NCBI RefSeq assembly: GCF_026151205.1 | Contig: NC_087074.1 | Coordinates: 6,572,001 to 6,636,000, forward strand | Source of the DNA: Bolinopsis microptera | Lineage: Eukaryota > Ctenophora > Tentaculata > Lobata > Bolinopsidae | Direction of reading: 5' to 3' | DNA length: 64,000 bases | Part shown: in pieces, positions 11,698 to 46,200 of the stretch | Layout of the letters: each line of letters starts with the position of its first letter | Position numbering within the stretch: the first letter of the stretch is position 1 | The notes under the pieces: generated by a model | Databases searched by the model: none | The model's input: the letters and a program-made list of their open reading frames with translations, nothing else | What the model was told of the DNA's origin: nothing | Program-made: the position numbers and the translations under genes

Positions 11698-11861
11698 TCT
11701 GCTCTGAAATAAATTCATTAAATATTGTGTAGTTTGTGCCTGGACTAGAGGATTGCAGTTATGAATTATGGTTTAAGGACCCATGACTTTGGCCGGTATA
11801 AATATTTATTTTCCAACAGACGACAACTTCCTGTTTTTTTTCCTTCTATATTAGTTACTCA

Positions 11862-13273: not shown

Positions 13274-16200
13274 ATGCCATATTATCGGCATAAGATTATA
13301 GCCAACAACAAGAACTACAAGCCTCTTACATGTTTAGGTGAGTGTTTAAAACCCCCATGGCCATTGTAGAAGTCTAAATATATAATGCCAATAATTGAGA
13401 AATGTGCAAACAAAGCAATGCTCTTTCTAAATTTTACATCATAATTAGACTTTCCTAATCTTCCATTCCTTATAACATCAATAATTTCAGAGTACGACTG
13501 CAGTCCCAAATACACGTGGCACAATGGACACTGCCTCGACCTTAGCTTCCAGGTACGGGTCCTGGTCATTGACCACACCACACATGTAACCTTAGTGTTC
13601 CTGCTCCTTCACTGATCAGATTACAATTGTACCTAATCTAATGATGATAAACTGCTCACTCGTCCCCCATGCTGTAGTTTACAAGTGCAGAATGAATTAG
13701 CATGTTGAGATGTTACACTGTGTAATTTTGAAGGACTCAAAATACCTTTGTGTGTTTTTTTCTCGCTGGATTATCAAATGACTTTGAGCAAGGGAACTCT
13801 TCAACTCTAGTATGTGACCACTTATGTGACCACTTTTACGGTTAAAGTCCTCCACGTATTTTAAAGAGCAATTATGAAATGTTGCATTATATATGTTTTA
13901 TATAGCAAAAGATTTCTATTTTTGTTTTAAACACATATTAAACTTTAAAACATCCGCAGAAAAAGGATGTAGAGAAACAGTACCAGATCTGTTCAGTTTC
14001 AGAGAGAAAATGGAATATTCAGCTTGCTTCCACTCTCTACTTTATACTATCGTTAATTCTCGTCATCTACTTTGCCATACGTGAGTATTGAACATTATAA
14101 CTGTTAGAAGATTTTAGTATATATAACTTTATACTTAATAGTAAAACTAATCTTATTTCGTAGTAAGAATACTTTGTAGGGTCGGGTCAATTTATTTCCC
14201 TGCTAACAAAAAATGAGATTCTGATATTGCATCAAGATTTTACCTCTGTGAAATTTTCTGAAATCTACTGTTAATTCAGCTGTTAACATACTGACAGCTT
14301 CATTCTGTCCAGGATTTGCAACAGTAGATAAAGATAATGACAAGGACATTAGTTTGCAGCTGTTCTACGCAACAGTAGCCGCCACGGCTGCTAACTTGGG
14401 ACTTATTGTCATCTCTCACACGCTCTCACACCATTCACTCCATGTCTCCTCCTTCTTCACCCTTATTGTCGGATTCATACCTTCCTTCACCATTCTCTAT
14501 TTTGGGGTGAGTTTCTGTTCAGTTTCTGTTATTTCACAATATTTACTGTGTACTGTTTTTAAAAACCAAGTTTCTAATCATTTTTATTTATCAATACTAT
14601 CACAATTTACTAATCCTATTATAAATTCAATTATTGTTAATGCAACCAATCTTTTGTCCCATTTTAATAACAATAATTTCTCAGAGGGACACACTGAGTC
14701 CTCTGTATCTGACATTTGTTTGGAGTTGCCCTATTTTGATATCATACACCCTGTTATACTTAGTAAGTGGATATTTTCAAGTAACTTTAGCTTTAATTAG
14801 TGTCGAGCGTCACATCTTACCAAATATTTAAGAGATCTCTCCTGGGATTTTCTGTCACCTTATCATGAGTTTTAAAGCAGTGTGTTGGATTTTCATGGTA
14901 TCTCATAAGAAATAATGTTGAGGTTATTACTTATTGTCACCACATGTTTGAAAATGGCAGTATTAGCGATTTGTGTATTTAGCTAACAATATTTTATTTC
15001 AGCCGTTATTGTTTTTGATAGTAGCTGGAGTGTTATACTCTGTGGGAGTCTTTTTATATACGCGTAAGTCAATTAGTAAATTAGTTAATTAGTTCATTAG
15101 TTAATTAGTTTATTACTGTATTTACTAAAATGCTTACTAAAATATTTACTTTTTATATACGCGTAAGTTACTAAAATATTTACTGTATTTACTGAAATAT
15201 TTACTAAATATTTGTAATAAGATACATATTGTTATGATATATCTATAGTGTCATATTATAGTATTATGCGGATATTATTTACAGAATTCTAAATTGAATA
15301 TATTTGTATATAACACTAACGTTCTATTTATAACTTGTACCTTGTTATTTAAATTTGAAACAAATGTACAATTCCGCCTTTTAATGGCAGGAACCACGGC
15401 TCTCGATTAATTACAATTACAATTTTATGCAAAAGAATAAAATGTTATTTAAAGAATACACTATTTAAATCTCTGTGTATCACTACTAATTATCAGTACT
15501 ACTAAAACAAACTCTTTCTTCCTCAGATTTAGATTCAGACCTATCGGCCGACTCAGAGCCTGTACAGTGTGTGTTTTATTTACTCACTCTGCTTGGAGTT
15601 AACCTCGTGGGGGCGTCCACCAGATTCTACGACGAGCTCACATCGTAAGTTACACATTGTGTCGTACTTATCACTGATTTAAAAAGTTTTTCATCGCTAA
15701 ATGAAATTCTATTTTTGCCCTGGTTACCTTGAAAAACAACACAGCTATAATATTAAAAGCTATATAAATTGCTTTTACACCATATTTTAATGTTATAATA
15801 ATTGTTATTTCCTTTATACATAACACCATTTATTTCAATTTAAAAGTCATTAAATTTTGTATTAAAATGTCCGGTACTATAATAAACAGACGCACTGGTG
15901 ATGCTAGAGTCTGGGAGTGTTAGCCAGCTTTAACTCCGTACTAATAACAACAGTATCCCACTGGGAATATACATGACGCAACGGGACCAATACAGTTCAA
16001 ATTCCACTTAAATTAGTGACGCGCTGCTTTTGAAGGTGTTATCAGGTTTAGTCACTTGAGTTGGGTTTATTAGTTTTTTCCCATATTATTATTATCTGTA
16101 AAGTTGTGATGTTCTCCTGGCATTTCTTTACGATTGTACTGCGCTTTGCTTACTTAAATAGAATGCCATATATAGGTAATTACTGGTTTAGTTAATTGGT

Positions 16201-19200
16201 AAAATGGTTATTGTTAAATGGGGTAAATAAATGGAGTCAACTCTCTAAGTGCACGGTGTAGAAATAATCCGGTATAGAGAGGTTCACATGATCCCAAATC
16301 CTCTCAAATAACCTGTCAAGCGTCTCATGACTCTGATATACCCCTTTACTCTTTAGCCTTATGTGCAAGTATTGTGTCGTATAGCGATGAAATACAGCTC
16401 AATATCTACTCATTTTACCACCAAATCAAATGTGACCACTGAAAAATCGCATTACTTTCTGAAAATATCAAATCACGGGCTAATTGACCAAAACTTTGGG
16501 GAAAAGAAGAGGCTCGGTATATCGAGGTACCCGGTATAGAGAGGCACAGTATACAGAGGTTTTACTGTAATATTATCAAATTGCAAATAGCTGTAAACTC
16601 AGTAAAAGGAATGTGAAACTTTAAAGTTATAATAATAATGATGTATGCACATGTTAATATATCAGACGTACAATACAATATGTTACACAATAAAACATAA
16701 ATCAACCGCAATATTATGTAGTACAAGCAGGCTCCGACAACACTGGCAGTGTACTCGAAAATAATCGGATATAGTTTACTCCCGGAGTCCCGCAATAAAT
16801 CAGTCTCGGAAATCTCATAAAATGTATGACGTCACTCACGTCACACGTAACACCACGTGACGTCACACACCACGTGACTAGAACATAGTCTCGGTGCTAT
16901 TGAAGTTGAGAATGAAGGTCCGTATCTGGAAGGGCTGGAGTTCAATAGTGTGCTTGGCAGCGTCGTCATGTTGGGTGTGAGATTTGTAATCTACAACTTT
17001 CTTTATATCTCTGTCTGCTGCTAAGCCAAGCTCCTGTGGGGGAGGCGACTCTTTTTAGTTACGTAACTAATTATAGGGAGTCATAAATATCAGAAAATTT
17101 GAATATCTTTTAAAATCCTTATATAGCTGACTGAAATCAATTATTAGCTTTAAATTGTCTTGGGAAGTTTACGAATCCTATTAAATTATAAACTGTTTTC
17201 ACTATGGTAATAATATTATTACATAATAGATCGCATAAATAACGCTATGTCCTCTTACCTGATATCCGTTGAAGTTACCCTCCACTCCAAATATATCATC
17301 CAACTTGACAGTAATAGGTTTGCCTCCCTCAGACCCAGGTAAAGTATTCTCCAGTCTCACTAACAGATCCGTCCCGTTTACAGAGGGTATCTTCTGCAGG
17401 GTCACTATGTTCAGGTATTGGCTTGCTGGGGTCGCGCTCTTGTAGAAGTTCCATGTAGGCACCTGTAAGGTAGAAACGTCATGTATCTACAATTTACATC
17501 TCTACATCTCTACATCTCATCAGACTACATCTCTACAATTTACATCTCTACATCTCTACATCTCATCAGACTACATCTCTACAATTTACATCTCTACATC
17601 TCTACATCTCATCAGACTACATCTCTACAATTTACATCTCTACATCTCTACATCTCATCAGACTACATCTCTACAATTTACATCTCTACATCTCATCAGA
17701 CTACATCTCTACAATTTACATCTCTACATCTCTACATATTTATTATAGATTCTATAATGCAGCAAAGTAGAGTGTCCGGGTGAAAGGTGAAAGCTGATGT
17801 TTGTAAAGATGTTATTGCGAAGCTGCTAACCTCAATTCCTCCCTCGTTTCCAATAACAACAGTGGGTTTGTAAAACAAGTCCAGACCAACATCTCGGTGC
17901 ATGTGATAAGAGATAGTATCTGAGTAGAACAGCCAGTGCCTCCCCCGCACTATCAGCCCTCTACCATTAGCAGTCTCGTTAAGGGGTTCACCTACTCCTC
18001 TGTGATCATCATTTAGTATCCGCCTGTGTACCATAAACTCCACCTGTTGGGATCTGGTATAAGGTTACTATTGAGTATTGGTTAATAATGGTTACTACTG
18101 GTTACTACGGGTTACTACGGGTTGGATCCCTCTTTCTCTGATGTTTTGTTAAAGTCACTAAAAGTGAATGTCTCTGTGAGACCACCATATTAAATACCTG
18201 GTAGTCTCTGTGAGACCATATTAAATACCTGTCCGTCTCCGAGACTGGCAGCCCCCTGACTTCTGTCAGTCAGAACAGTCAGCTGCATTCCGCGCGCACT
18301 GTCTACTATAGTAGCGCGCGTGTTGACTGGGTAGTAGTTCCCCGCTATAGGCTCCGTAACCGTCAGATCCCAGGTAGGCTGCTTGTTTAACACTCTTTCA
18401 ACCATCTCTCTACCTGAACCGGGTAACTCGTCAGGGTTATTGATAAACAGTAGAGTTAGAAAGTACACAAATGTGAGGTTTATTAGTGGAATTGTTGAAA
18501 AACTACCTGCTACTTACCGTTACTGACTCCTACTTACCGTTACTGTCCGTGTAGAAAGTCTTGTTAGTAGCTAGACTAGTATCGTACCGTGTTATTATCT
18601 CCCTGCCATGATCTAGAGGGATAGGACCAACTGTCCACTCTACTTCTATGTGGAACTTATCGTAGTATATTCTTGTTACCTGGGTTATTACGTGTCAGAG
18701 TGTGACGTCACAACACGTGTCAGAGTGTGACGTCACAACACTTGCCAGAGAGTGACGTCACAACACGTGACAGAGAGTGACGTCACAACACTTGCCAGAG
18801 TGTGACGTCACAACACGTGACAGAGTGTGACGTCACAACACGTGACCACATCAGACAATATTGCAACTAGACGAAACAAACATGATATTTGTATCTGAAT
18901 TATTAATCGGTATTGTTGAATGTTGTCAATGAAATCGAATAATATAAATAAATAAATCATATTTATTAATATTATAAAATAAATTGTCCTCTATTAACCT
19001 GGGTAATCCAGTCGTCGAATGTTTGCCAGACTTCAGTGAACAGTTCCCCAGGTATGTAGTCCGTCAGTATGGGGTCTCCTAGGTCGTCGGGTGAGTTGTT
19101 CAGTGGTCTGAATATGTACGCTCCTGCAATTTATTATACTAAAGGGTGTCAGCTGTTAATAAAGTACTGCTTATTAATCAGAACTAGAACTGTACTTACC

Positions 19201-22200
19201 AGGACTAGAACAGTACTTACCAGAGGGTTGGTTGTCCACTTTATCACCAGGACTACAACTGTACTTACCAGACGTTTGGTTGTCCACTTTATCACCAGGA
19301 CTAGAACAGTACTTACCAGAGGGTTGGTTGTCCACTTTATCACCAGGACTAGAACTGTACTTACCAGAGGGTTGGTTGTCCACTTTATCACCAGGACTAG
19401 AACTGTACTTACCAGAGGGTTGGTTGTCCACTTTATCACCAGGACTAGAACTGTACTTACCAGAGGGTTGGTTGTCTACTTTATCACCAGGACTAGAACT
19501 GTACTTACCAGAGGGTTGGTTGTCCACTTTATCACCAGGACTAGAACTGTACTTACCAGAGGGTTGGTTGTCCACTTTATCACCAGGACTAGAACTGTAC
19601 TTACCAGAGGGTTGGTTGTCCACTTTATCACCAGGACTAGAACTGTACTTACCAGAGGGTTGGTTGTCCACTTTATCACCAGGACTAGAACAGTACTTAC
19701 CAGAGGGTTGGTTGTCCACTTTATCACCAGGACTAGAACTGTACTTACCAGAGGGTTGGTTGTCCACTTTATCACCAGGACTACAACTGTACTTACCAGA
19801 GGGTTGGTTGTCCACTTTATCACCAGGACTAGAACTGTACTTACCAGAGGGTTGGTTGTCCACTTTATCACCAGGACTACAACTGTACTTACCAGAGGGT
19901 TGGTTGTCCACTTTATCACCAGGACTAGAACTGTACTCCATGAATCTCTGAGTAAGTTTGTCACTTCTCCCACTCAGCCCAGCTAGCTTATTAGTTATCA
20001 TCTTCATAGCGCCGGTCCTACTGTCAAAATACACCTTGTAAATCTGGGACTCCACCATTAGATCCTCCCCGTAGTAAACTGGCACACTCTTCAGTACTCG
20101 TCCCACATGGTTTAGAGACACTCTCAGTTCGAATGAGGCGAAGCCGAGAGGTGGAAGCTCAGCTCTGAACACCCCCTCTAGTGGTAGAGAGTCAGGGTTG
20201 AGAGCTCTAGTGGCAGCGCTGACACGGAGGTACTCTACTGGCATGTACTGTTGTGTAACCAGGTTAACAGCGTGGTAGTGGGGGTGGGTTAGAGGTATTC
20301 TGATGTACTCTATTCGTGGAGTTACCCTGTGGGTATATGTATAATAAAATAGTGGGTTATGATAATTGTAGGGTCACACGCCTGATACATAGATAAAATT
20401 ATTGCGAACAATGAAGAAGACAGAAGTCGTTGACGTTAGTCAAACTTATTACTCGTGCTTATTTATATGAAAAAAGAAATCAGAATAATCCGAACTTAAT
20501 AAAACCACGCACCTGGCATTGTACACAACAATAGTGAGACTGCGGTTACCATCCTGAGTAACCTCACAGTAACTCTCGTTTAGTAACCGACAAGCGTGTA
20601 ACTTGCCAGTGTACACTGACTTCATCTTCAGGCCTTTAGTAATCAGTGTTTCACATTCTGTCTGACCCGCAGCTAGTCTTCTAGCGTAGTCGTCCGCTAC
20701 GTGCTGGGAATAGTGTGTTTGTTCGTTTGTTTGTTCGTGTGTTTGTTCGTGTGGTTGTTCGTGTGTTTGTTCGTGGGTTTGTTCGTGTGTTTGTTCGTTT
20801 TTTCTTTCGTGTGTTTGTGCAATTCAAAGTATAACTGGCATTTTCGGAAATTTGAACAAAGCAGTGTCGAACTTATGGTATAAGGTTGTGACGTCAACTT
20901 ATTGTTAAATGATCTTATCCTAAAATAGTTGTGCGTCATCCATAAAAAGGGCATCGATGGGCATGGACTTAAACAGTTATAAATTGAATTGTGATGAAAA
21001 TAAACATTACCATCGTGTTTGCCTTCTATTCCTATAATTAGCAAGTACAGCTATATTTCAGCTTAATAGAGTATGGTATATAATATCAGGAATATTTATT
21101 TTTCAATTCTTCAATTTTTACCGAAAAAAGATGAAAAATGGGCATGTGCATCTGCATCGGTATTAAGGCCTTCTAATTTCTCGCGAGAATCATTTATTCT
21201 CACGGGAAATCACAACGTCACAATGATAAGTGATAAATCAACATGATGGTGGAATATTTCTGAAGGCGTCACTACAACGTCAACTATATAACTTGTTGAT
21301 TGTTGAAACGAAATGGTATTAAAACCCATCTTCTAGAAGTTTCTAAACCCCCAATTTCTTGTGGCTATTAGATCACTAACCTGTTTGCTGGTCACTAACT
21401 GGTCACTTACTGGTCACTAACCTGTTTGCTGGTTCCACTGACTGCATCGTGGTGCTGAGAGACCCCCATAGCCAGTCTGAGTAGCTCAGAAGTAGCCCCC
21501 AACTTGTCACCAGGTGCTGCTGCTGCCTCCACGTGCTTACACACCTGCAACACATTGTTACAGTCCCGGACATACCCTTTTAGGGTGGGGCGAGAGGTGA
21601 AGTAACCAGTCCAGTAAGAGTGGGGACCGTCAGCGTACGGGAACAGATCGTCCGTTTTATTTTGTAGCCCTCCTACGGGAGTAGTGGTCACGTGACGGTA
21701 TGTGGTCTGGTTAAGGAGCAATAACTGACTCTGAAAAAAGAGTCCCTTAAGGGGGACCCCCCGGCCCCCTTAAGCCCAACAGAATAAACATGATGCTGAG
21801 TGCTGACTTGCTCTAAAACTGACAATATTAATCTTTACCAATAGATTTGAGAACAGCGTCCATGTACTGAGAAGGGGTGGAGTAGATCATCTTGAAGCCG
21901 TTGTTGGTTGTGTTGGCGTTAACGTAGTCCATTAAGATGTCCAGGTTTTTGAAGTACTTGTGGGCGTTCTGGTAGCAGAAGTCCCCTCCCATGGTCAGCA
22001 TTATGTTACCACTTCTGTAGTGGGATGACTGAGGGGATGTGTTTCAGATATTTAACTTTAATTGTTACCTGGAAATATTTGAGATATAGTTTTATGTATA
22101 AGTTTCATTGACCACGTTGCTTATTGGTAAATACTTTTGTAGTTTTGTTACAATTATGAATGATACGAACAGAATCAGAAGGTTTCAAAACCAATCAGGC

Positions 22201-25200
22201 TGCGATCTTGATGTAATTTCAGTTATTATTACTTTATTGGCAACACGTTTTATCATCAGTGTATAGGATGCACCAGCAGACACTGTACAGAAGATAAAAT
22301 GAATGTTTTGGCTTATTTTACATTACACGTGACATGCCATCACACCACGTGACACCACACCACGTGATGGCAACTCTAAAGATGGTAACTTTAGAGACTG
22401 ACCTGTTGCCTCATGTAGCTGAGCAAGAGTTCAGATCGAGCTACAACATTGTATTCGGGAGATGCTCTGTTAGTTACTATTGGAGGGTCTTTACAGTTCG
22501 TATCAAAACAGAACCCATCAGGACCCTCGTATCGGTAATAGACTACACTCGTAAATATTGAGCTGTTCTCTTCTTCAATCACCCAGCGGAATTCCAGGCT
22601 GAGAACGTAGGATTTTTATAGGGGCGGGAAATATGGGAAAGTTAAAGGGGGTGACCCTCCATAAAGTGCTAGCTGGTACATCCCATATTATTGTTTTTAT
22701 CTGATACAGTTATACGATTAGGAACCTGTTCTGTAAGATAATCAATCATATCCTGTACCCTCTGAAATACGTTATACTCGGGGCTGTCCTTGTTGGTAAC
22801 CATGGCGGGGTCGTTACAGGCTGTATCGAAACAGAAACCGGAGGGTGCCCAATACATATCCCACATAACGTGTGTGAAGATTGAGGTGTCACTCTCCATG
22901 CTCAGCCACCGGTATTCTAGACTGGGGAAGTGTGATGTCATGACACGTGGCGTGACGTTATATTATGTGGCGTGACGTCATGACACGTATTTTGGTCTTA
23001 CAACTTCTTGTTGAAGAATTTTACATGGTGTCTGCCGTTGCATCCGTCTCACGATACCCAACAAAAATAACCTGTTCCTCCAAATAAGAAACAAAGTCCT
23101 CAACTCTCTCTGGAATGTTGTACTCAGGAGATTGAGGGTTCCTGACCATTGGGGGGTCAGCCCTTCTACGGTCGAAGTCAAATCCTGGGGGTGCATTGTA
23201 GTGTTGTCGATACAGGACACCGGTGAACAAGTTCCCATTTTCCACTTTCCAGTTAAATTCTAGACTGAAAGTGTTGTTCTCTCATGGTCATACTGTGCTT
23301 TGTTTCCGCAGCAATAGAGTGAATAGACCATTGTATTACAAAATACAATAATACATTTGCATTTTTGATTCATATCATATCCTGTACCCTCTGAAATACG
23401 TTATACTCGGGGCTGTCCTTGTTGGTAACCATGGCGGGGTCATAGGTGCAGATTTCGTTTTGAGGTGAACTTTTAAGTTCCCGAGAAATCTTCTTAAGTT
23501 TGCTTTTTTTTTCTCCTCGGGCACATTCGTAACCTACGGGCCAGGTAAACCTAAACTACATATTGACCGTTATGTACGTCGGTATCTGTTGAGGAGCCAA
23601 ATCATCTGAAAAGCCCTAAACCTATATTTTGCTCAGGCACGTAGCCAAGATTTTTCTTTGGGGGGGGGGGGGGGGGGGCTGTCGGCGAGCGGAGCTGCAA
23701 GCTGTGGCAGGGGTCTGGGGGCGGACCCCATTGGCGGGGGCTAGGGGGGAAAATTTTGCGAAATTATAGGGTGTTTTAGGCTAAATTGAAAGTTTAATGA
23801 ATTTACAAAAATGTATGGTTTGGCATAATCATTGCCTACAATCCTGACCTGAGTAATTTCCCCCTTTGAGACTTTATTTTGGGTTGAAAATTGAGTTTAT
23901 CGAGAGGAAGTGAAAAATCTCTGGTTCAAATTTGGATTTGAAGCCATGTTTAATTTTTTCTGTTGAGGTCAATTTTTTGCGCAGAAAGCGCTCGATTTTA
24001 GGGGCGAAAATTTAAGTTTGCTTTTAATTTTTATGGTCCTGTCGGCACCTGAAATCGACGAAATCTGCAGGGGTGGGCGGGGTCGCTACAGGCTGTATCG
24101 AAACAGAAACCGGAGGGTGCCCAATACATATCCCACATAACGTGTGTGAAGATTGAGGTGTCACTCTCCATGCTCAGCCACCGGTATTCTAGACTGGGGA
24201 AGTGTGACATAATATCACGTGGTGTGACATAATATCACGTGGTGTGACATAATATCACATGGTGTGACATAATATCACGTGGTGTGACATAATATCACGT
24301 GGTGTGACATAATATCACGTGGTGTGACATAATATCACGTATTGTGGTCTTAACAATTATTGTTGAAAGTCAGTTTACAGTTTACATTTTACATGGTGTC
24401 TGCCGTTGCATCCAAGAAGGCCATTAAGCCCTATTTTCTCACGACACCCAACAAAAATAACCTGTTCCTCCAAATAAGAAACAAAGTCCTCAACTCTCTC
24501 TGGGATATTGTACTCAGGAGATTGGGGGTTCCTGACCATTGGGGGGTCAACCCCTCTACGGTCGAAGTTAAACCTTGGGGGTGCATTGTAGTGTCGATAC
24601 AGGACACCGGTGAACAAGTTCCCATTTTCCACTTTCCAGTTAAATTCTAGACTGAAAGTGTTGTTCTCTCATGGTCATACTGTGATTTGTTTCCGCAGCA
24701 ATAGAGTGAATAGAACATTATATTACAAAATACAATAATACATTTGCATTGTTTGATTTGATTGCTACTAGAGCACTTATACGGCTTTAGGGTACTTAAA
24801 AGTTGCCAAATTGATTAAGCAAGCAAGATGAATGAGATATAATATATTGTTACACACAATATATTGTATGTTTACTGATTACTCACTCTTTGTTCCTCTT
24901 TCTTTTATCATAGTCCTGATAATGCATCCTAGCAAAGAATAGTCCCTTCATACCCATCTGAGCACTGAGAGCTGCGTGTGCTGAACTGTGTCCAAACGGA
25001 TCTATCTAGATTGAATAGGTTTCAGCAATGAGGTGAGACTGTGAGAATACAAAAAACACACAAAAAGACAAAAACAGAGAATTTCGCGGAGTGATGATAG
25101 ATACAACAGTACAACAACTTCAGCTGAGAAAAAGTCTCAGAGACTTGAGGATGACGCAAACAACTTAAGAACTAAGAAAAATTCACGACCACACTGAGCA

Positions 25201-28200
25201 GTACTTGACTGCAAAGAATTTTGATTTGAAAGATTTGGAGCAGTGTTATACTATCTGACCTGCCAAGCGATGGTGGGGGTAACATCATAGTCAGGTCCTC
25301 CAACCTCCCTCTGTAACCACATCAGTCCTTCACTCATCTGGTCTATTGTTGCTGCGTAGTGAACACTCGCTTCATCGTTCATACAGTACCTGGACATGGT
25401 TTAACTACAATAATATTGTAAAAGTCCATCATCTACTTAATATTATTATACAAACATAGAAGAAAATCATGATTCCCGTTATAAGAAGTTATAATATATA
25501 TTTGTCTGAGACTAACCCCGCGTTGATGAACTCGAGCTGTCCCCCCTTGACCAGGTTCCTGACCTGCTGTCTGGTCTCCTTGTCTTGTTCCTCCCACCAT
25601 CTCTTAAAGAACGCTATCTCCACGTAGATAAACTTCTTCTTAGGATCCTTTACCAGCTGCTCTATGACAGTGTCTATTATGTACTGTACCTGGAAGAAAC
25701 TAGCTTATTGAAACTGTGGTTCAAATGATCGATATTGTACAGAAAAACCATCTCGAGAATGATTTATTCTGAAGAAAACCTGGCAAGTCTTATAATCATC
25801 CCTCCCGGCCTCCCCATTACAATGCTAAGGTCTACCTTACTCGGGATTATTATAACCGGGATAAAGTGGTGGGTTTTGGAAGATTCCGCCATATTTTTCC
25901 CGGTCAAAAATTTCACCAGTCATAAAAAAACCCGCCGACTCAGATTATGGGGTTCCAAGGGGGTGGTGATCATCATATTTTACCTGAAGTCTCATATGTG
26001 CTAGAGAAGACTTTTGAAGCAGTGGATGGAGGGCTGTAACTTTATTGGCGGTTGCTACCATAATTTCGTTATAAAAATCACAATTTGGTTATAGAAATCA
26101 GATTTCAGGGTGGACCGTGATTCTCACTTTTCTTGCCCATGAAGTGAGTAAACTGTGCCACTATTTCATGGTCCACGGTGGATTGATTACTGGAGCAGCT
26201 GAAGATGCAAAGCCAAGACGTTCCCCAATACCAAGCGGTGGGTAGGAAATTAAGCTCCGGCTGACCTTCAGAGCAGTAGCCCCATTAGCGGACAAAATGA
26301 AAGTCTTGTTAAGACAACAATACAACTTCGAATTTGACGGTCAGCAGCAGGGGGATATCAATAATGATGATGGAGGGGACATTAGCGATAATGAGAATGA
26401 GAATACGCTTTAATGAAGATTTGACTTATTATTGCTATAGATTTATTTTCCTTTAAATACTAGACGTGTCTTTTTTTTCTATTTCTGAGTAATATCAGTA
26501 ACTGTAAATTGAAATAACTTCTTTAACAAGTAACAAAAACAGAAATTTCGGTTGAAAATTTGTTGACCTCTGAAAAAAAAACTTGAAAGGTCGGCCACCG
26601 GTAAATACATGACCGGGATAATTTGGCGGGTTTTGGGAAATTCCGCCATATTTTTACCGGTTATTAATTTTCCCAGTCATAAATTAACCCGCTATAATAT
26701 TCCCGAGTAAGGTATCCAAAAATGTAAGCATATCAGCAGCACCAACATTGTAGGTTCATATTAAAATGTGACCCGTGAGACTTTCCCCCTCCTTTGAGAG
26801 ACTCACCCCACTCTTGTGAGATTTCCCCCTCCTTTGTGAGACTCAGCCCGCCCTTGTGAGACTCAAACCACCCTTGTGAAACTCACCCCGCCCTTGTGAA
26901 ACTCACCCCGCCCTTGTTAGACCCACCCCACCCTTGTGAAATTCACCCCACCCTTGTGAAACTCACCCCACCCTTGTGAAACTCACCCCACCCTTGTGAA
27001 ACTCACCCCACCCTTGTGAAACTCACCCCACCCTTGCAAAACTCACCCCACCCTTGTGAAACTCACCCCACCCTTGTGAAACTCACCCCACCCTTGTAAG
27101 ACTCACCCCACCCTTGTGAAACTCACCCCACCCTTGTGAAACTCACCCCAACCTTGTGAAACTCACCCCACCCTTGTGAAACTCACCCCACCCTTGTGAA
27201 ACTCACCCCACCCTTGTGAAACTCACCCCACCCTTGTGAAACTCACCCCAGCCTTGTGAAACTCACCCCAACCTTGTGAAACTCACCCCACCCTTGTGAA
27301 ACTCACCCCACCCTTGTGAAACTCACCCCACCCTTGTGAAACTCACCCCTCCCTTGTAAAACTCACCCCTCCCTTGTGAAACTCACCCCTCCCTTGTGAA
27401 ACTCACCCCACCCTTGTGAAACTCACCCCACCCTTGTTAGACTCACCCCACCCTTGTGAAACTCACCCCACCCTTGCGAAACTCACCCCACCCTTGCGAA
27501 ACTCACCCCACCCTTGTGAAACTCACCCCACCCTTGTGAACTCACCCCACCCTTGCGAAACTCACCCCACCCTTGTGAAACTCACCCCACCCTTGTGAAA
27601 CTCACCCCAACCTTGTGAAACTCACCCCACCCTTGTGAAACTCACCCCACCCTTGTGAAACTCACCCCACCCTTGTGAAACTCACCCCACCCTTGTGAAA
27701 CTCACCCCAACCTTGTGAAACTCACCCCACCCTTGTGAAACTCGCCCCACCCTTGTGAAACTCACCCCACCCTTGTAGATATCATCTTTAGACCCGTAGT
27801 AGTACTGATCCACGGTCTTGAGCCACCCAACATCGTCATGAGTGTGAGCCACCACGTGGACCGTTATAGTTCCTTCGTGTCCTGGAACCTTCTCATCTGA
27901 CGGCCTAAGTACGTGGAGAGAGAGAGAGGAATATTAGGACAGCTGCACGCTAGTCAGATATATTAGTTAGTGTAATAAGATAAAATATCTGGGTTTTATT
28001 AGCTTATTGAATGAAATATTGATCAAGGTGGGCTGTCTTTCTGGCTAATACTTTTTAATAATATCTAGAGTTCAAACTTGTGTGACGTTCGCAAAGCTGA
28101 GTGAATTGTGGTCTGTAAATTGTCAACCGTTTGGTTAAAATTATGGAGTAGGGAAAAATACTTTGATTTATCGACCTCACGCTCACCCGATACCACTCTG

Positions 28201-31200
28201 TTTAAACGTTTTAAGCGCAGAAGGCCACCCTTTTGAAACATATTTTTGAAACAAGCTTTAACAAAAGCTACGTGTTTTTGTAATCCAATCAAATCAAATT
28301 TCTTGAACGGCAAAACCAAAAGTATTTTTCAATATTATGTGCGTATTAATCTACTGATTGTTTTGGAATAATTAATCTCAATTCAAAATAAATCTCCTAG
28401 ACTTTAGTTCCAACTTACGTGTCCACATCTGCGTGATTTATATCAATATCGGGCTCATCAGCTGTTGTAACGGTTACAAAAACCAGCGCTACAAGCGCCG
28501 TTACAAGCGTTACAATTCTCATATCAAGCAAATGTCAAACAGTTCAGCAAAGTGCGACATCCAATACTCTAGATTCATGAACTTTCTTATCTTTGTCATT
28601 GCGTTATACTCAACGCAAACATTCTCTGTAACCCAAAACCAGCCGTTTTTACTTATCTTTCCAAAACATGATTAAAACCTGAAATAATGAGTTCCACCAC
28701 GCAGTGCGGGTTGATCACGTGTCTCCCCATTAAAACGCGGGAACGTTACGCAAATTGGGTGAATATAAAGTACTACAGAAAACAATTAAATGTTGGATTC
28801 CACTAAAACTGAATAGCAAGTAGTGTAGCAATTAGCTTAGTGAGTAGTATAGGAATAGTGTAGGTTAACTTCAAGTTGCCCCCTGATATACCGCACTTTG
28901 CAAGATACTGCTTGTCTCAGCCTCCATGACATGTTTTAAAGAGCATGTCTGGAGCTGTCAAAGTAAAATTAGTCGGTGCTTTGAGTTATGATATTGTCAT
29001 AGATATGAGTTAACTTGAATACATTGTCATAACTCATAAGGCTGAGGTGCTATCATGAGTTGTATTGTTGTAATACAGCGTGATACGTTAAACCATAATA
29101 CCAGGACCAAGGTGCAGGATGAATGAGGATAATTGTTCAGATCTATATATAGCTAGATTTTTAATATTCAAATAGGACAATGTTTGCTGCTGTTATATTA
29201 ATAATACTGAAATGTAAATGTTGAACTACTAGTGATCTGCCGGGCTGCTCACCAAGCTGACATTTAAAACTTCTGCAGAATTGCAATACCTTGAACACTG
29301 AACAGTGTGTACTAATTACAGGTGCTTCGACTTACACTGCCGGCTCTTGTACTAGGGTGCCTATTGTGTAGAGATAGCACCCTGATATACACGGCTCAAC
29401 TAGATACCATGTAACCAGCACGTGTACTCCTTCACAAAATAACCTTGGTTTTGGGATCGCACGTGTGAACATATTTTCTAGTGACTGGTATCAAGGAGTC
29501 CATATAATTATCACTTGATACTTACGTTATCAAGATCATCATTATTATGATCAGAAGCTATATGATTAGATCCCCAAATATCAACTCGTATTGTCGGAGT
29601 TCAACAAATAGTTGATTTAAACTCACCTTCGATCTTGGATATGAAAAGGATTTAACAGATATTGTGTTGGTTTGAATACTGTTGCTCAATGCTCATTATA
29701 CCTCCCGCCCACTTAAAGACATTTCTCCGGATACACTGTAAGATACAGCTTTCTGCGGCAAATGAGGGAAGTCAAGCACTGCACCACAGCCGGTGCAGCC
29801 TTCACTGATCCGTGTATTGTATAATGGGCCCAGATTTTAAAATTACTTGGAGTATATTGTTAATCGGACAATCGGGGGAAACTTATTGCAAAGTTTATAT
29901 TATATTAAACATGTATAGGATAATATTCAGAGATAAATCATTATAGTAATATTTTTGTTTTGTTTTGTTATCTAGAGCTACACTTAGGTCCAGGATCATT
30001 ATAATAATATATAACGCTGGACTTCTAGGCAAGATGCTTGGTTATGGGACACACTCAACTAAGTAAGGTTGAGAGACCTCAAATCTCCCTAAAGAGATAT
30101 CAACAGAGTGTGGGCCACTGCCTGACTAACCTGTGAATAGAGTTAGCCCGATTCTATGAGTATGGCAGACAGTATCTTCTGAGTTGTTGAGATTCTGAGT
30201 ATCCTTTGTCCGTGGTGCTGGTTACAGGCTCTTGTTGTAGGTGGTAGAAGGATAATTGCTGACACCAAACTCATTTACATGAAGGATAAGAATCACAGCA
30301 ATAGGATTAGACGCGAACAGTGGTAACTAAAGGTTGAATAAACCTAGAAATTAGCGAAACCAATGTGAACGTGGATAATGGGTGGAGAGATGACGCACGT
30401 TTGTTTGGACACGTGCCAGTGATTTTATATTAGATTGGCTGATGCTGCCCACTGATTGGCTGAGTTGCAAGCTGATCGATCAATCGCTAGCACACGTGCG
30501 TCACGTCCCCACCACTACCGACTGCGACAGGAACGCTCTCTTCGTCTCTGGCGGGGTTATAATCTCCAATCGATAACTGACACGTTTAGCCCCCAGAAGG
30601 TTCTGGAACTAAACTCTGCAGGTTAAACTAGAAGCTGTTTTATATTGTACGTTTTTTTATAGTGTGAGCAGCACGTGAGCACGTGGTTGTAAAGGTTCGT
30701 GTGAGGTGGGTAGATTGTAGAATATAATATATTTGATAAAGGAGCAGGAAGTACATTGTCTGATGATTATATGCAAGCACATTGTACTGTAAATAGTAAA
30801 ACTAGGGGTTGGGCCCTCTCAATATCACTAATGTGTAGTGTGGGTGTACAGTAAACAATTAACACGTGTATAATAATATATTGTCAATACGCTAGCTACA
30901 TGCTCTTTGATCGCACACTAAATTCTAAAGAAGGCCTCACCTGGGCCCTTTAATTTTGTAATGACGCTTTCTCACGCAAATCGAGCAACCAATCCCCTAA
31001 CTCTAATTCTTGCTTGGTTTAATATCGCAGTCAAAGCGCAAGTTTGGTAGACTTAGTCATACACGCGATACGATATTCAGTAATATTTAGACCGGGATGA
31101 TCAGACACCGTCGAGGAGTCGGCCATATAACCCGGCTGGCGGCTATTTCTCAGTCTTAGCTTCATTGTAACCGGGTGAATGAACCAGATATTAAATTATG

Positions 31201-34200: not shown

Positions 34201-37200
34201 TGTAGATATACAATTATAAACCCCTCCGGGTTAGAATAAGATTCTGATAATCCCGGCTCCCGCTAGATAGATTCTGATAATCCCGGCTCCCGCTGTTAGT
34301 TTTTTCCCGCTGAATAAATAACCCCAGCACAGCTTCTATAATCCCGCCCCGCTAATTTGGCTCAACAAGATTTGTTTTGTTTTGATATTCCATGAGAATT
34401 TCAACCGCGCACTGTCACGTGTTTTGATGACGTGTATCACGTGACTAACTACTACGACGCGCATTCATGGTAAAAAATGTCACGTGACCTATGGCTTAAC
34501 GTAAGAACTATAAATACGCTTGATCTACGTATCGGTCTAATTGCAGGCGCTGGCAAAACTCCAGCACACTGCTTACATTACCTAAACTCTTACATTACTT
34601 GGGCCAGTTCCAGAACTTGTCTCGACGGTTACATTTGTGCGGTTAATTTTGTCGTGTTTGATATAAGCCATGTATTATCAATTATAGTCGTCTACTTTGA
34701 TGAACTTCATGACACGATATCATTATTAGCTCCACCTTTTATCGCTTGCCAGGCTTAACTGAAACTCGACGCCCCTTATCGATATTCATTCAACGTTCTG
34801 ACTGAGGAATAATGTTTAGATATAACGCCAATTTCAAATGTCATGGTACCTTAGTTGTATTTATTTGGTAGTCCCCAATTCCATTTCATATTTTCCATAC
34901 TGATCTCATATAGCTAGAATTAAGAGTAAAATGTCAAATTTGTTGGTCCTAGCACTAACCCGGATGGGTTTATAACACATAACACCGGCACGCTTAAGTT
35001 ATATCAAAATAACCCCTCGTGCTAAAGCACGTCGGGGTTATTTTCATAATAATCCCTCGTGCTTCGCACTCGAAATTATTATAAACTTTTCCCGCGCGTC
35101 GCGGGAAAAATTGAAATATAATCCCTGCGCATGCCGGGGTTATGTGTGTTATAGGATGGGGTTCAAGCTGTAGATACACAATTATAGGATGGGGTTCAAG
35201 CTGTAGATATACAATTATAGGATGGGGTTCAAGCTGTAGATATACAATTATAGGATGGGGTTCAAGCTTTAGATACACAATTATAGGATGGGGTTCAAGC
35301 TGTAGATATACAATTATAGGATGGGGTTCAAGCTGTAGATATACAATTATAGGATGGGGTTCAAGCTGTAGATATACAATTATAGGATGGGGTTCAAGCT
35401 GTAGATATACTATTAGAGGATGGGGTTCAAGCTGTAGATATACAATTATAGGGGGGTTCAAGCTGTGCACTACTATCTAGCCTATATTAAGTACATATAA
35501 TACACGGTCATGTTTACCTTCTCTCTCACTCCGATGTGCTGGTAATTGACCTGGTAGATTACATTGTCTGTGTCACGACTGGTTACAAACCAGTCAATTT
35601 AATACTGGGATTCCACCTGTCTCATAGTTAATCAATAAATTGCCAGTTAAATTTATTTTCTCAGCACAGTGCAGTATGGTTAACAGTCTTGCAGGCTGCA
35701 GCGAGGATTTTCACTTCGCAATATTATCTGGATCTTGCAGTTCATCTTGGCGGAATTATATCGTATTTTATTGCCGCCAAAGTTATGTGGTTTAAGGGTA
35801 GTTACTATAGTGAGTGGCTAACACTTACAATGATCACTCTCGTAGTTTTGTCACGCGGGATGGTTGTAGTTTTGTCTCAAGGTTCTGTTGTTTGTGAGAC
35901 GATCTCTCTGTTTCTGGAACAATTAATGGTGCATAAAGTAGTCATTCCAAGACGTTTAAAACTACGTAAATCATTTTCTATTTTTACTGGAAATATATAA
36001 TTTTCACTATCATTAAGAGAACGGAAAGTTGTTCAGCTGTTCCCACATTATTAAGAAATGCAGCTTTACCAAGATACAGTCTGTAAGGCCATCTTTACAC
36101 TTGTTCAGACTAATAAAGTCTATAAGGGGTCGTTCACATATATTATGTAATCAATGTTTGGCTAATTTTTAACCCCCTCCGTAATCAGTTTTACACATAG
36201 CTATTGTGGTAAAATTTCAATAGCATAATCATTTGAAAACCCCCTCCCCCCTCGGCTGATTACGTAATATGTGAAAGACCCCATAATGCCATCTCTACAG
36301 GTTGATAAAGTCCATAATGCCGGAAGCAGTGTGTCACCAGATCCTAGAGAGTGGTGTTTTACACGACTCAGTCCTGTGTAAGGACCCGGAGTATATGATG
36401 AGGAACCTACCTATCAACCTGATGGAGCCTGTATCTATTTTGTACGCTGATCTGGTGGGGTTCACTGCTATGAGTAGCACGGTAAGTAAGGGGTGGGGTT
36501 CACTGCTATGAGTAGTACGGTAAGTAAGGGGTGGGGTTCACTGCTATGAGTAGTACGCCGTACGGTAAGTAAGGGGGGTTCACTGCTATGAGTAGTACGG
36601 CAAGTAAGGGCCTAAGGGGTGGGGTTCACTGCTATGAGTAGTACGGTAAGTAAGGGGTGGGGTTCACTGCTATGAGTAGTACGGTAAGTAAGGGGTGGGG
36701 GTTCACTGCTATGAGTAGTACGCCGTACGGTAAGTAAGGGGGGTTCACTGCTATGAGTAGTACGGTAAGTAAGGGCCTAAGGGGTGGGGTTCACTGCTAT
36801 GAGTAGTACGGTAAGTAAGGGGTGGGGTTCACTGCTATGAGTAGTACGGTAAGTAAGGGGTGGGGATCACTGCTATGAGTAGTACTGTAAGTAAGGGGTG
36901 GGGGGTTCACTGCTATGAGTAGTACTGTAAGTAAGGGGTGGGGGTTCACTGCTATGAGTAGTACTGTAAGTAAGGGGTGGGGTTCACTGCTATGGCCTAT
37001 GAGTAGTACGGTAAGTAAGGGGTGGGGTTCACTGCTATGAGTAGTACGCCGTACGGTAAGTAAGGGGGGTTCACTGCTATGAGTAGTACGGTAAGTAAGG
37101 GCCTAAGGGGTGGGGTTCACTGCTATGAGTAGTACGGTAAGTAAGGGGTGGGGTTCACTGCTATGAGTAGTACGGTAAGTAAGGGGTGGGGGTTCACTGC

Positions 37201-40200
37201 TATGAGTAGTACTGTAAGTAAGGGGTGGGGGGTTCACTGCTATGAGTAGTACTGTAAGTAAGGGGTGGGGGTTCACTGCTATGAGTAGTACTGTAAGTAA
37301 GGGGTGGGGTTCACTGCTATGAGTAGTACGGTAAGTAAGGGGTGGGGGTTCACTGCTATGAGTAGTACTGTAAGTAAGGGGTGGGGGTTCACTGCTATGA
37401 GTAGTACTGTAAGTAAGGGGTGGGGGGTTCACTGCTATGAGTAGTACGGTAAGTAAGGGGTGGGGGTTCACTGCTATGAGTAGTACGGTAAGTAAGGGGT
37501 GGGGTTCACTGCTATGAGTAGTACGGTAAGTAAGGGGTGGGGGTTCACTGCTATGAGTAGTACGGTAAGTAAGGGGTGGGGGTTCACTGCTATGAGTAGT
37601 ACGGTAAGTAAGGGGTGGGGAGTTCACTGCTATGATTAGTACGGTAAGTAAGGGGTGGGGGTTCACTGCTATGAGTAGTACGGTAAGTAAGGGGTGGGGG
37701 TTCACTGCTATGAGTAGTACGGTAAGTAAGGGGTGGGGAGTTCACTGCTATGATTAGTACGGTAAGTAAGGGGTGGGGGGTTCACTGCTATGAGTAGTAC
37801 TGTCATGTAAGTAAGGGGTGGGGGTTCACTGCTATGAGTAGTACTGTCATGTAAGTAAGGGGTGGGGGTTCACTGCTATAAGTAGTACGGTAAGTTAAGA
37901 GGGGGTTGTGTTTTTGACTGGTGTTTATTTTATGGATACTATGCGACGGTAGAATTGGATGAGCGGTCATGTATTGACAATTTTCTTATCTTCTTATATT
38001 CTTATCTGTAATCCAAAGCAGCGTTAGAAAGATATTCCTGTTATCTGTACATCTCCTTTTAAGATAACACCAAGTTCCCTGCAGTTACTAGCCCCTGAGC
38101 TGGTGGACCTGTTAACCGATCTGTACGGCAGATTCGACTGTGTTGCTGAGGCGTACAACTGTGAGAATATCAGTATCCTGGGTGATTGTTACTTCGCTGT
38201 ATCAGGTACAGTATGTGGTTACTGGTTACTGGTTACTGGTTACTGGTTACTGGTTACTGGTTACTGGTTACTGGTTACTGGTTACTGGTTACTGGTTACT
38301 GGTTACTGGTTACTGGTTACTGGTTACTGGTTACTGGTTACTGGTTACTGGTTACTGGTTACTGGTTACTGGTTACTGGTTACTGGTTACAATTATTTTA
38401 TAAGTATGGTAAGGACCAATCAAAATGTTGCTGAGAGTCTATAGAGTTAAGTGAGCAATCTTACAATAATTTGATTAGTCTTCTATCAGATTAGAGTTTA
38501 CTAATTATAATACTAAGATAAGTTAACTTTAACTAAAAGTTCAAGTATTAATATTCGATGGTATAATAATATAATGTAATCATGATGGTAATGTTATATT
38601 ATAGGCAATATTGGCGATTGATAGTCAGTGCCATTAATGTAATTTATTTGCCATTCTTCGTCGCTCAAATTTTTGGGAACTAAGGTAAACGATTTTGAAT
38701 TTACCATAACCTTTCCTGATGACAAATTAAGAGGAATATTTCTGAGACACTCTATTACAATATTAATTATATTATAATATGGTTAGTACAGTATAAAATA
38801 CATCACCTGTAACGTATACTCATTAAAGTGCACAATGTAGTGTCAGGTATATACCACTTAAAATTACATCAGGCACATTGTCAGGCTATTAATGTGATAA
38901 TATCCTATATAAAATACATTATACGTTAATTGTAATTAGAAGTGATTTTATTTCCTCCAATAATATGAAGTAATATAATGATACTGGCTATGTAAGATCT
39001 CTCCCTAGTACTACAATAAAACCCACCGTGGAGTTTGGGGGAACAGTCTTGTTAAAACAGGGTAAATAGGGACGCGGCAAATCGGGGGTTTACTGTAGTA
39101 GGTTGTGCGTATTAATGACATTTTTGTTATAAAAACATACTGTACCTATCAACGTGTATTAGTGCCACACTTGGCAAGGTGCCAAATATATAGCAAATAA
39201 ATCCATAGTGCCCATATCCGTATTTAACCAAGACATACCTGTACACGAGCTGTTTATACTAAAACATGAGCTATTTAAGTAAATACCGTACTTAATCATC
39301 CATAATTTAAAATAAGAGTACGTGGTCTGTATACCAGTGGTCAACTAAGATACCGTGTACATGTGTGTTTAAAGGGCTATTTTTAGAAATCAAGGCAGAT
39401 CACTGTAAAATCAGATCAAACCCGTGTCCGGTGGTCGTTAGTGAGAAGATGGTACCTTGCCTCATTATCCTATTATCTGCAGATAACATGAGTAATTATC
39501 CTGCATATAACGAGTAATTATCCTGCATATAACGAGTAATTATACCCTGTCTGGTAATGATAATAGTGTCACTAAATAGTCTTCACTTGAGCTCCCACTC
39601 GCTCCTCTAATTAGAAACGCAGGAATAATTAATTCTCTTACTTCCTAATTAACGCTCGATTCATCTAATTATCGTTTAATTAGCTCTAACTTTTAACAGG
39701 ATGCCCAGAAGCTGACGAAAGACACGCGGACAACTGTATGTACACGGGAGTAGGACTCATCAATGCTGTAAGTCAAACACAAGGAAATATTTTTGTTATC
39801 ATTTTCAAGTTTGTCTCTACAAACTGACCAGCACTTTGCTAATGTTGAGTGGTCATGTTTCTCCTATGTTTGTTTGAGCCAGGAAGTGTTAAACAAAAAA
39901 GGCATTTCTTGAGAACGCTATTTACATTACAGTTGCAGTTACAACCTAATAGTAATATTTTTGGTAGTGGGTTACTAATTTACAAAACATCCCTTATCCA
40001 ATAATATCACTCTTATACCTTAAACAGAATTACTAATGCTGTCATGCCCTGCACGAGGTAATAAATGTTACAAGGCAAACCTTTGTGATCATAAAATGTA
40101 CATATGGCAGCCTAGCTAACCGCACTTTTGTGGTTTGATAAGTGCTTCTCAACTACTCCAAACCCTGCAAAGATAGCTTAGATTCTAACAGATCACCGGA

Positions 40201-43200: not shown

Positions 43201-46200
43201 AGGCTTCGCATTTTGTTGTAGAAAATTATTAATTAAGATGTCACTGTTTTTAGTGGGAAACGCCTAATAATTTGAGATATAACATCTGTATCTCTTGTTC
43301 CAGAATACTTGTCACTTATTTTTTCCTTTTCACCCTTTTGAAAAAAGGCAATAGTGAAAGGTTACGAATGGAGGTTTTTGCAGAAAAACGTGGATTTTGG
43401 AGATTGCAGTAGGTGGGTCTGAGTATGTCAGTATGTCGTGTTCCTTGCTTCCGTCCGTTACCAAGCAACGAAAAAGTTGCGCGCGCGCGAGGATTGCTTG
43501 CGGAGATGTGATGTATAGATAGCCTGTGATCTATGAATGCGCGGCGCGACTGTGTTTTAATGTATATGATGCATGTAATGTATAATATTACTATTAGGTA
43601 ATACGCCCAATTTGTACGTGGCACGCGTAGTGTATTGATTTGTACACGAGTATAGTTTACCTTTGCTGATCATTTCTTGAATTACAGATACAAGTTAAGT
43701 TCTACGGCAATTGAACTGAATTTTTTCCCGTATTTGATGCATAATTTATCAATATTATTAATATTATGAAGATTGAAGTGAGCTGATTGGAGCTTATACT
43801 TAAATTTATAGTAAATGTGAAATGGAAATCTAGCGTCCGCCAAAACGAAACAACGGGCGCAATTCTTGTTAAATAAGTGACAAGTATTTTGCAGAATCAT
43901 TTAAGAATGATTCTGCAGCTATGTATATGACCTGCAGATTGTAGAGTCACTAAAATAGGGTCATCGAACAAATTATAACGTGGTTTACTGGTTTAATAGT
44001 TTCAGGATATTATTCATTCTTTTGTAATTGATATCAATATCAGATGTTTGGTCCAGCGATGCCAAGTTGGCGAATTACATGGAATCTGGTGGAGTACCCG
44101 TAAGTTTGGAAATTACTAAATTTTACTAATTAGCTGACTTACTTTGATTATTCTGCAAAAAGAGTTTCTTTTAAAATGTTGTGGATGAAATCACTTTTGG
44201 TTGAACTTTTGAACAAAGTTGGAGATAAGGAATAGTTTCTTCAGTATATCATGTTAATCTTGTTTCAGGGCAGAGTTCACATTTCTGAGAAAACTAAGGG
44301 ATGTCTGCAAGACAACTGGGACTTTGAGGAGGGCTTCGGATCCAAGAGGGAACCAGGTAAGAGGAGGGGTTCGGTCCTTCGGATCCAAGAGGGAACCATG
44401 TAAGAGGAGGGGTTCGGTTCCAAGAAGGAACCAGGTAAGAGGAGGGGTTCGGATTCAAGAGGGAACCAGGTAAGAGGAGGGGTTCGGATCCAAGAGCGAA
44501 CTAGGTAAGATGGGTTCGGATGTAACCGAGCTAGGTAGTTTGTACTAATTTTCTTTTAAAGATTTTTAATCCATCCTAAAGTATTGCACCGTTCTTTAAT
44601 TCAAAATGTCAGTAGTTGGACTATATCTAATTTGGAAGGAATTGAGCTTGGCAAATTATAGGATATAATAATATTCGCATAAAATTAACGCACAATCAGA
44701 ATAATCTAACTCACTAAGCTCAGGTGCAAATGAATAAATAATACCATATTATGTGCAACTTATATCATATTTCCTCACCAAACCGTACAGTAACTGATAA
44801 ACCGTTATTAAAAGTTTTATAACGTGCTAAAATATGTAATTTAGTGGTTGTAAGACGTGCCTTTAACAAATATTAATAACATAATTCTCCAGCTCGAACT
44901 TAGCATAATATGCAATAAATTATCTAATAAATCGTGGTAGTAATTTATTAATTATGGATTCATGATATCAAATTATTAATGTATGGATTTATTTGAATAT
45001 AGTAGCGGTTTATGAAATGCGTTTTATGATTGTACGATGTAATATTGAGACCTGCAATGGAACTCTCAAAACTTCAAAAGACCAATTTAAACGTTTAATT
45101 CTAGGGGAGGTATGACCATTTTAAATAAATCGGAAAAACATTTGAGGGATTCTTAGAATCTCAGATTCTACCTCCAACGATAGATATTAAACTTCAAGCT
45201 TTAATCATGCCTAAATCTCCCCACACTTGATTTTAAATTTAAAGCTATCAAAGGTCTATGATTATAGAACTCAGAGTCACATGGAGAGTTTTTAGCTTTT
45301 AAAGTTTTAAGAGGTGGTTTACAAAAAAGGCAGGTTTTGGTCACACGCTACCAGTTTAAATTTTAACCCTTGTCTTGTAATTATCTGTGAATGTAAAGAT
45401 TTCAGACTCAAACAAATCTCTCTGTACGAGATTTCAGACTCATTTTCATGACATAACTATCACCGAAAATGTGTTTAATTATAGTTGATTTGGTATTCTC
45501 AAGCTCGGGATCACTTTCAATTTAATGTAAGTTGCGACTTATCTTTAATTTGACATCTGAGGAACACTCGACTGCTACTGCAAGTGCAACTGTTAAATGA
45601 TTTAACTCTAAACGTTACGTAATTTTAACTTGTCTCATAAATTGATATAAGCGTCTAATTTTCGTTAAGAAGTGCTTTTAATCTAATTAGATGTTAGTCT
45701 TAAATCTGAAAGTCACTTATTTGTAATATTAGTCTAATGCTGTACGAGACCGTTACAAAATGAATCTCTAAACTAGTGTCACATAATATTTGAAACACAA
45801 GGAAAGGTTTTAAGATCCACGGCAGTTAATATACTTATATTTTTACCTACGCTTAGAAGAGTTGTATGTAATTGCAAACACTTTTCCATATCCATTTAGA
45901 GGCTGCAGAATATATTATATATATATATACCATTTTGACACAATGATGCCCTGTGTCGTGAACCGTTAGCATCGTCACCATAGCAACAAAAAAATAGCAA
46001 CCAATGACTGACAAAGCTGATGAAACGCACCGGGGAACAACCAATAGAGGGGTTTGAATTCAGTCACGTGACTGTAATAGGGGTGACACCTGTTAAAGGG
46101 GTGTAGATTGTAATGCATCTAGTAACAGGCACGTTCCAATAAATCTCTTCTTAATCGCGCGTAATGATAAAGGCTTATCATTTAAATGCCAAAAACTAAC

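Follow-up and report, generated by a model that had tools for sequence, protein, structure and literature searches.

In the ctenophore Bolinopsis microptera, exon 10 of a gene for lysosomal alpha-mannosidase runs into a minisatellite in which each unit carries a splice donor. Does this locus yield a ladder of enzymes of different lengths, or is one donor chosen and the rest of the repeat removed with the intron? We addressed this question in a window of 64,000 nucleotides (contig NC_087074.1, positions 6,572,001 to 6,636,000), whose features are collected in Table 1. The first-pass annotation had named the gene correctly. It encodes the N-terminal, middle, and C-terminal GH38 domains in a single intact frame, with matches to 6b9p and 1o7d. 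In the public NCBI annotation, the B. microptera protein P0121 is lysosomal alpha-mannosidase-like isoform X2, for which PF01074, PF09261, and PF07748 are listed, and it is identical to the gene model that we built except in exon 6. The gene resembles other lysosomal alpha-mannosidases (GH38; MAN2B1/LAMAN) in its intact reading frame, the same three Pfam domains, and the retained SGAYIFRP motif, whereas it differs in that one internal exon exists in alternative copies and the introns carry donor repeats.

Table 1. Gene, exons, and donor-spanning repeats in the window (window positions)
Feature	Positions	Strand	Basis or remark
Lysosomal alpha-mannosidase gene, whole	16878..28522	-	Gene model; 16 exons, 983 residues plus stop, ORF intact
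Mannosidase exon 10 with first (annotated) donor	19893..20326	-	Gene model; junction same in P0121; gap-free to 6b9p and 1o7d at junction
48-bp minisatellite, 15 full units plus partial	19198..19937	-	Unit of 40 nt exon end and 8 nt intron (GTAAGTAC); 16 GTAAGT
Mannosidase exon 11 (AYIFRP...)	18999..19123	-	Acceptor TTGCAG; phase-1 junction
20-bp minisatellite, about 50 copies, over donor of mannosidase exon 2 (27904-27766)	26786..27776	-	43 GTRAGT donors
Mannosidase exon 8 donor, exact downstream copy of 20-nt context	21370..21440	-	Gene model and copy test
Mannosidase exon 12, donor-spanning two-copy duplication	18505..18550	-	17/20 nt
Mannosidase exon 13, donor-spanning two-copy duplication	18170..18240	-	16/20 nt
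39-bp minisatellite, about 36 copies, over donor of adenylate-cyclase-9-like exon 9 (ends 36481)	36457..37895	+	
35-bp minisatellite, about 5 copies, over donor of cyclase exon ending 44356 (FGSKREP)	44326..44510	+	
Cyclase exon 6 donor (15063), downstream context copy	15040..15170	+	19/20 nt

As first described, exon 10 ends in a 48-bp unit that includes its own GTAAGT donor; on the minus strand the first unit begins at 19932. The earlier estimate of about 15 copies agrees with the 15.4 copies (97% matches) found by TRF in the one assembly from which the copy number was taken, whereas the donors number 16 and not about 15. From the first, at 19892, they recur at 48-bp intervals as far as 19220, and the 16th, at 19199, follows after 21 bp, likewise a multiple of three. 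The frame from exon 10 stays open through the array until the TAA at 19176-19174, where it had already been placed. The claim that every donor has the same phase and can be joined in frame to exon 11 also holds, as 16 of 16 give an open in-frame product with that exon (GAGCGTACATATT...). Each unit would indeed add 16 residues, but the peptide had to be corrected for register. All 16 hexamers are intact and equal, so the sequence itself forbids no use of a later donor.

The array itself is far beyond chance. The lack of stops in it, which had been considered notable, is unremarkable: the probability of no stop across the copies is 0.75 to 0.84, and one unit length in three would be divisible by three by chance. 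The open frame is uninformative because the unit is derived from an exon, only 5 of the 144 single substitutions of the consensus unit make a stop, and the copies differ by just five distinct substitutions (eight cells). The frame is open because the unit is exonic apart from eight donor bases, which by chance can be translated (KY), because its length happens to be divisible by three, and because the copies are young. The caveat that recent homogenization could explain the missing stops was well placed.

Exon 10 is one of several such places. In the two genes of the window, downstream copies are present at 8 of 33 donors, a rate biased by the choice of the window for such a feature, and at 0 of 33 acceptors. 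Five of these donors belong to the mannosidase gene and three to its host gene, the cyclase gene. Copies at donors and none at acceptors would follow from use of the first donor, with later copies doing no harm. In the exon 2 array only 2 of the 43 donors, the first and the third, are in frame and open, and in the tested stretch of the cyclase exon 9 array 1 of 35 GTAAGT hexamers, again the first, leads to a product that is open and in frame. As the first donor is open in both, first-donor choice is likely the rule for these arrays, in line with what is reported for intron 7 of human factor VII. Ten donor-spanning repeats were compared for the distance from the donor unit to the copy that follows: it is divisible by three in three cases (48, 66, and 99 bp) and not in the other seven (20, 41, 20, 31, 38, 35, and 28 bp), and three of ten is the chance expectation. 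Arrays in the mannosidase gene and its host gene whose spacing is not a multiple of three would be tolerable only with the first donor normally chosen.

Outside the window, three mannosidase paralogs offered 24 donor places, 1 of which has a donor-spanning repeat; a sampled locus has another. An alpha-mannosidase II-like paralog (contig C2) has a 66-bp ladder in which 11 of 11 donors are in frame and open. None of the true paralog acceptors, at 20 places, has tandem copies; the only one flagged (1 of 20) was dropped, as its motif had matched an intron repeat and the true acceptor has no copy. Peptide motifs served to locate the paralog places, and at one donor place or more, together with the matching acceptor place (NVKER followed by SLLILDQW, in the gene on C3), the sequence reads on with no intron; the true number of places is therefore slightly below the count. 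The LAMAN paralog P0123 (contig C1) is nearly intronless. Overall, the sample comprises 57 donor places, 9 of them with downstream copies, and 53 acceptor places. Inside the introns of the window's two genes, 51 of 1,757 sampled positions are the first of an array, and against this background the paralog rate amounts to no enrichment.

A genome-wide enrichment of tandem repeats at donors is suggestive only. Of ten hexamers tested for tandem triplets, the donor hexamers GTAAGT (16,393) and GTGAGT (12,370) rank as the top two. The enrichment is only suggestive because the control GTTAGA comes close (11,125) and the acceptor-like TTTCAG (5,407) is about fourfold above its own reverse, GACTTT (1,300); the other controls gave 8,031 (TGAGTG), 5,638 (AGTATG), 3,050 (TGAATG), 2,968 (GTATGA), and 2,731 (AGATTG). 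The triplet pattern spans spacings of 16 to 46 bp and misses the 48-bp array of exon 10. In a 264-kb sample, 11 of 219 GTAAGT and 1 of 144 GTGAGT were first of an array, compared to 276 of 13,641 for the permutations, which places GTAAGT 211th among 3,183 hexamers; the two GTAAGT triplet arrays in this sample are equaled or exceeded by 17% of hexamers. In 200 kb without the window, 37 of 121 GTAAGT and 1 of 72 GTGAGT stand in tandem copies, compared to 1,237 of 10,115 for the GTAAGT permutations. A strong tendency toward donor repeats across the genome was rejected in view of the paralogs, GTTAGA, and TTTCAG.

The isoform ladder and the length-variable enzyme proposed by the first-pass annotation are not supported by comparison with proteins. 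In this proposal splicing draws on several of the 16 donors, so that multiples of 16 residues enter a surface loop and alleles differ in copy number. The annotated model P0121 joins exon 10 at the first donor, as it does exon 2, and P0122, the ortholog from Mnemiopsis (85%), lacks the insert. The repeat junction motif was sought in 360 proteins (the best 120 of each search, with P0121 and P0122 included) and found in none. The insert would part SGAYIFRP after G642, which all 26 aligned proteins share, and before A643, conserved at 90% or more, and SG[AV][YH][IV]FRP is contiguous in 115 of the best 120 homologs listed. In the AlphaFold2 model the junction falls in a low-confidence loop (residues 633 to 646, pLDDT below 50), so that an insert is structurally not impossible, and this favors the ladder, as do the open frames at all exon 10 donors and the similar ladder of the alpha-mannosidase II-like paralog. 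Given the chance distribution of spacings as well, we consider the ladder decidedly unlikely. Later donors may nevertheless serve at a low level or in particular tissues, and alleles may differ in copy number. A wider proposal is that ctenophore genes repeatedly make donors into minisatellites and that the subset divisible by three (48 bp in exon 10 and 66 bp in the alpha-mannosidase II-like gene) sometimes uses later donors, which would give length-polymorphic enzymes, while sequence exchange of the first, exonic unit with the intronic copies would allow intron variants (S to C and P to T) to enter the coding exon. Taken as a whole, this is decidedly unlikely as well.

The array could also be a functional intronic element under selection, such as a set of clustered U1 snRNP sites aiding definition of exon 10 or, in another role, shielding the long transcript from premature polyadenylation. 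The intactness of all the exon 10 donors and the leading rank of donor hexamers among tandem triplets would fit such an element. The triplet counts lose force with GTTAGA so near and with a few long arrays supplying many of the matches listed, and such copies are missing at 23 of the 24 paralog places. Even with both roles counted together, this explanation is highly improbable. It is barely credible that the array is an assembly artifact, with a true copy number of one or two and a repeat over- or undercollapsed, as its copies bear distinct variants and similar arrays exist at independent loci.

Very probably, the exon 10 repeat is a donor-spanning minisatellite that is nearly all intronic, with the first donor used and an ordinary enzyme made. 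It is probably passenger intron DNA that does not serve to vary the length of the protein. A segment comprising the 3' end of exon 10 (40 nt) and the 5' end of intron 10 (8 nt) would have been duplicated in tandem, and slippage or unequal exchange may then have expanded the duplicate to about 15 near-identical copies. With the most upstream donor used, one unit would be coding and the remainder spliced out, and the expansion would be neutral. We infer that this choice of the first donor would operate in vivo.

Coding minisatellites such as the mucin-type VNTRs offer one comparison. Like these, the exon 10 array consists of Ser/Pro/Gly/Asp-rich units repeated in frame, whereas its units after the first appear intronic and the repeat is absent from the proteins searched. 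Another parallel, associated with oriented scanning, is intron 7 of human coagulation factor VII (F7), where 37-bp repeats bear donors and only the most upstream one is reported to be normally used (PMC6627357). In both cases, the tandem repeats begin at the exon's own donor; in the ctenophore array, downstream units have equally good donors. In contrast, the ctenophore unit is 48 bp long with about 15 copies and 16 donors, all in frame and open, five mannosidase and three host-gene donors have copies, and first-donor use in Bolinopsis rests on annotation, not on experiment. The literature searched, including the available text of ctenophore genome papers (PMC12221973 and PMC8527503), yielded no description of donor-spanning minisatellites from ctenophores, which is not proof of absence.

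If first-donor use holds, the arrays of Bolinopsis, with 11 to 43 near-identical donors, would be a natural test of 5' splice site choice. To our knowledge, the choice among equal 5' splice sites has been studied mainly with constructs and with the human factor VII repeat. The in-frame and out-of-frame ladders within one gene would serve as matched controls: splicing errors should show through nonsense-mediated decay at the out-of-frame arrays and as protein at the in-frame arrays. The arrays also illustrate how the end of a coding exon can come to share its sequence with intron repeats, which may overwrite it.

The window spans positions 6572001-6636000 of contig C3. The lysosomal alpha-mannosidase gene in it is intact and encodes 983 residues in our own gene model. 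The 48-bp unit at the end of its exon 10 is present as 15 full copies and a partial one. The array contains 16 GTAAGT hexamers, the first at 19892, in 48-bp steps with a final step of 21 bp, and the exon 10 reading frame stays open through it until a TAA at 19176-19174. Spliced in silico to exon 11, all 16 donors gave an open, in-frame product, which confirms the array anatomy, the in-frame donors and the frame open to 19174 described in the first-pass annotation. Very probably, the array reflects a tandem duplication across the donor, which would then have expanded via slippage or unequal exchange, with the first donor being chosen so that the units after it would remain intron.

Coordinates of the genes, arrays and other features (window positions unless a locus is named)
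Feature	Position	Strand	Description
Lysosomal alpha-mannosidase gene	28522-16878	-	16 exons
Mannosidase exon 10	20326-19893	-	3' end inside 48-bp unit
Mannosidase exon 2 array		-	20 bp x ~50; 43 GTRAGT donors
Mannosidase exon 6 copies	A 24651, B' 24193 (with a ~0.6-kb interruption), A' 23264, B 22921, C 22598	-	homologous tandem copies, 24651-22403
Minisatellites	17486-17737, 18690-18846, 24202-24340		stop just upstream of mannosidase acceptors, not spanning them
Adenylate-cyclase-9-like gene	13274 to past window end	+ (opposite mannosidase)	19 exons placed with protein P0241
Cyclase array	at exon ending 36481	+	35 GTAAGT
7-bp TGGTTAC x25 array	38216-38390	+	begins ~11 nt past cyclase donor 38205, not spanned
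Third array	44356	+	spans cyclase donor
Palindromic repeats	49199-49855		11/22-bp, diverged, CCGGCTATAAGCCGG type
Reverse-transcriptase-like stretches	about 9000-12540		resemble broken retroelement fragments (judged by eye)
Alpha-mannosidase II-like array	L032:431-1130, C2 near 21.24 Mb		donor-spanning; exon ending VPHSHCDPG, then 66-bp copies that repeat this peptide; 11 donors
Donor-spanning array	L008:8090-8990 (200-kb sample)		exon ending DKEINVGYGEPP, then donor-bearing units of ~28 bp, roughly 0.9 kb

The first-pass annotation had proposed that each donor can join exon 11 in frame and that a ladder of isoforms may result. A full-length protein search retrieved P0121, the lysosomal alpha-mannosidase-like isoform X2 of Bolinopsis microptera (by its naming style apparently a RefSeq model), which is identical to our model except in exon 6 (copy A' in P0121, copy C in ours) and joins at the first donor of both exon 10 and exon 2. 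The Mnemiopsis ortholog, P0122, reads YSSSTGDKVDKQPSGAYIFRP at the junction. Among the best 120 of 3,770 homologs above threshold, the junction motif was contiguous in 115 (104 SGAYIFRP, 8 SGAYVFRP, 2 SGAHIFRP and 1 SGVHIFRP); one of the other five has SNNYIFRP and four have no detectable YIFRP. The repeat junction was absent from all 360 proteins that made up the best 120 of each of three homology searches. In a 26-protein alignment, no variation occurs at S641, G642, F646, R647 or P648 and hardly any at A643; extra units, if translated, would sit between G642 and A643. Residues 633-646 fall below a pLDDT of 50 in the AlphaFold2 model (mean 80.6) and thus lie in a flexible or poorly predicted loop, where an insert is physically conceivable. 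A ladder from the later donors is improbable; the putative repeat-bearing isoforms are unlikely as a main product.

By origin, the consensus of the 48-bp unit is open: the 40 nt that come from the exon are coding, and the 8 nt of intron that bring the donor translate as KY. The 15 copies hold 5 distinct substitutions in 8 cells. A stop would result from just 5 of the 144 single substitutions that can occur, which puts the probability of finding none at 0.84 if five events are counted and at 0.75 if eight are; the absence of stops, earlier thought notable, is thus unremarkable. Three of the five substitutions are non-synonymous (two S to C, one P to T), and these small numbers give no sign of purifying selection. 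That the 16 hexamers are a cluster of U1 sites under selection seems slightly less credible even than the ladder. The exon 10 array has a close parallel in the 66-bp ladder on C2, another contig, where 11 of 11 donors are in frame and open and the first leads to ordinary HSHCDPGWLLQYEEYYEQ sequence. For the exon 10 array, an artefact is the least probable reading of all.

Other donor repeats in the window contrast with exon 10: the exon 2 array is in frame and open only via donors 1 and 3, and the cyclase exon ending at 36481 gives an open in-frame product from its first GTAAGT only. We counted a splice site as copied when its 20-nt context recurred (at least 16/20 matches) within ~220 nt, downstream for donors and upstream for acceptors. 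In the mannosidase and cyclase genes this held for 8/33 donors versus 0/33 acceptors (Fisher P = 0.005); in their intron interiors, 51 of 1,757 sampled positions were first-of-array. The asymmetry argues for first-donor use: a duplicated acceptor would add exon sequence, while a duplicated donor does no damage as long as splicing takes the first copy. Pooling with three alpha-mannosidase II-like paralogs, identified by homology, gave 9/57 donors and 0/53 acceptors (P = 0.003), where the window is an ascertained sample, which affects its donor rate, one acceptor was re-assigned on inspection, and the C3 paralog is read through, with no real junction, at one or more of the donor places and one of the acceptor places. 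The paralogs alone, with a repeat spanning the donor at 1 of 24 places tested, the one on C2, show no excess over the intron-interior rate.

The mannosidase gene is nested antisense in intron 7 of the cyclase gene (17.3 kb; 15645-32953), and the locus numbers of the two Mnemiopsis proteins, G005287 and G005288, follow directly on each other. Use of the exon 6 copies is probably mutually exclusive; A' is the copy in NCBI isoform X2, and the exon in Mnemiopsis is C-like.

Across the 264.65-Mb assembly, tandem triplets at 16-46-bp spacing (match counts, weighted heavily by long arrays) numbered 16,393 for GTAAGT, 12,370 for GTGAGT and 1,300 to 11,125 for eight comparison hexamers. Minisatellites (period of at least 12, at least 3 copies) formed 79 arrays, or 13.7% of 264 kb including the window, in line with the 13% tandem repeats given for the ctenophore Hormiphora (PMC8527503). 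A donor-spanning minisatellite as such is of a known kind: in human factor VII intron 7, which has donor-bearing 37-bp repeats, splicing is reported to use the most upstream donor only (PMC6627357). New, as far as we searched the literature, are that two mannosidase genes have an open in-frame ladder, that a gene can have several donor repeats, and that the host is a ctenophore. With minisatellites this abundant, arrays may arise at many sites in a genome so rich in tandem repeats, donors among them.
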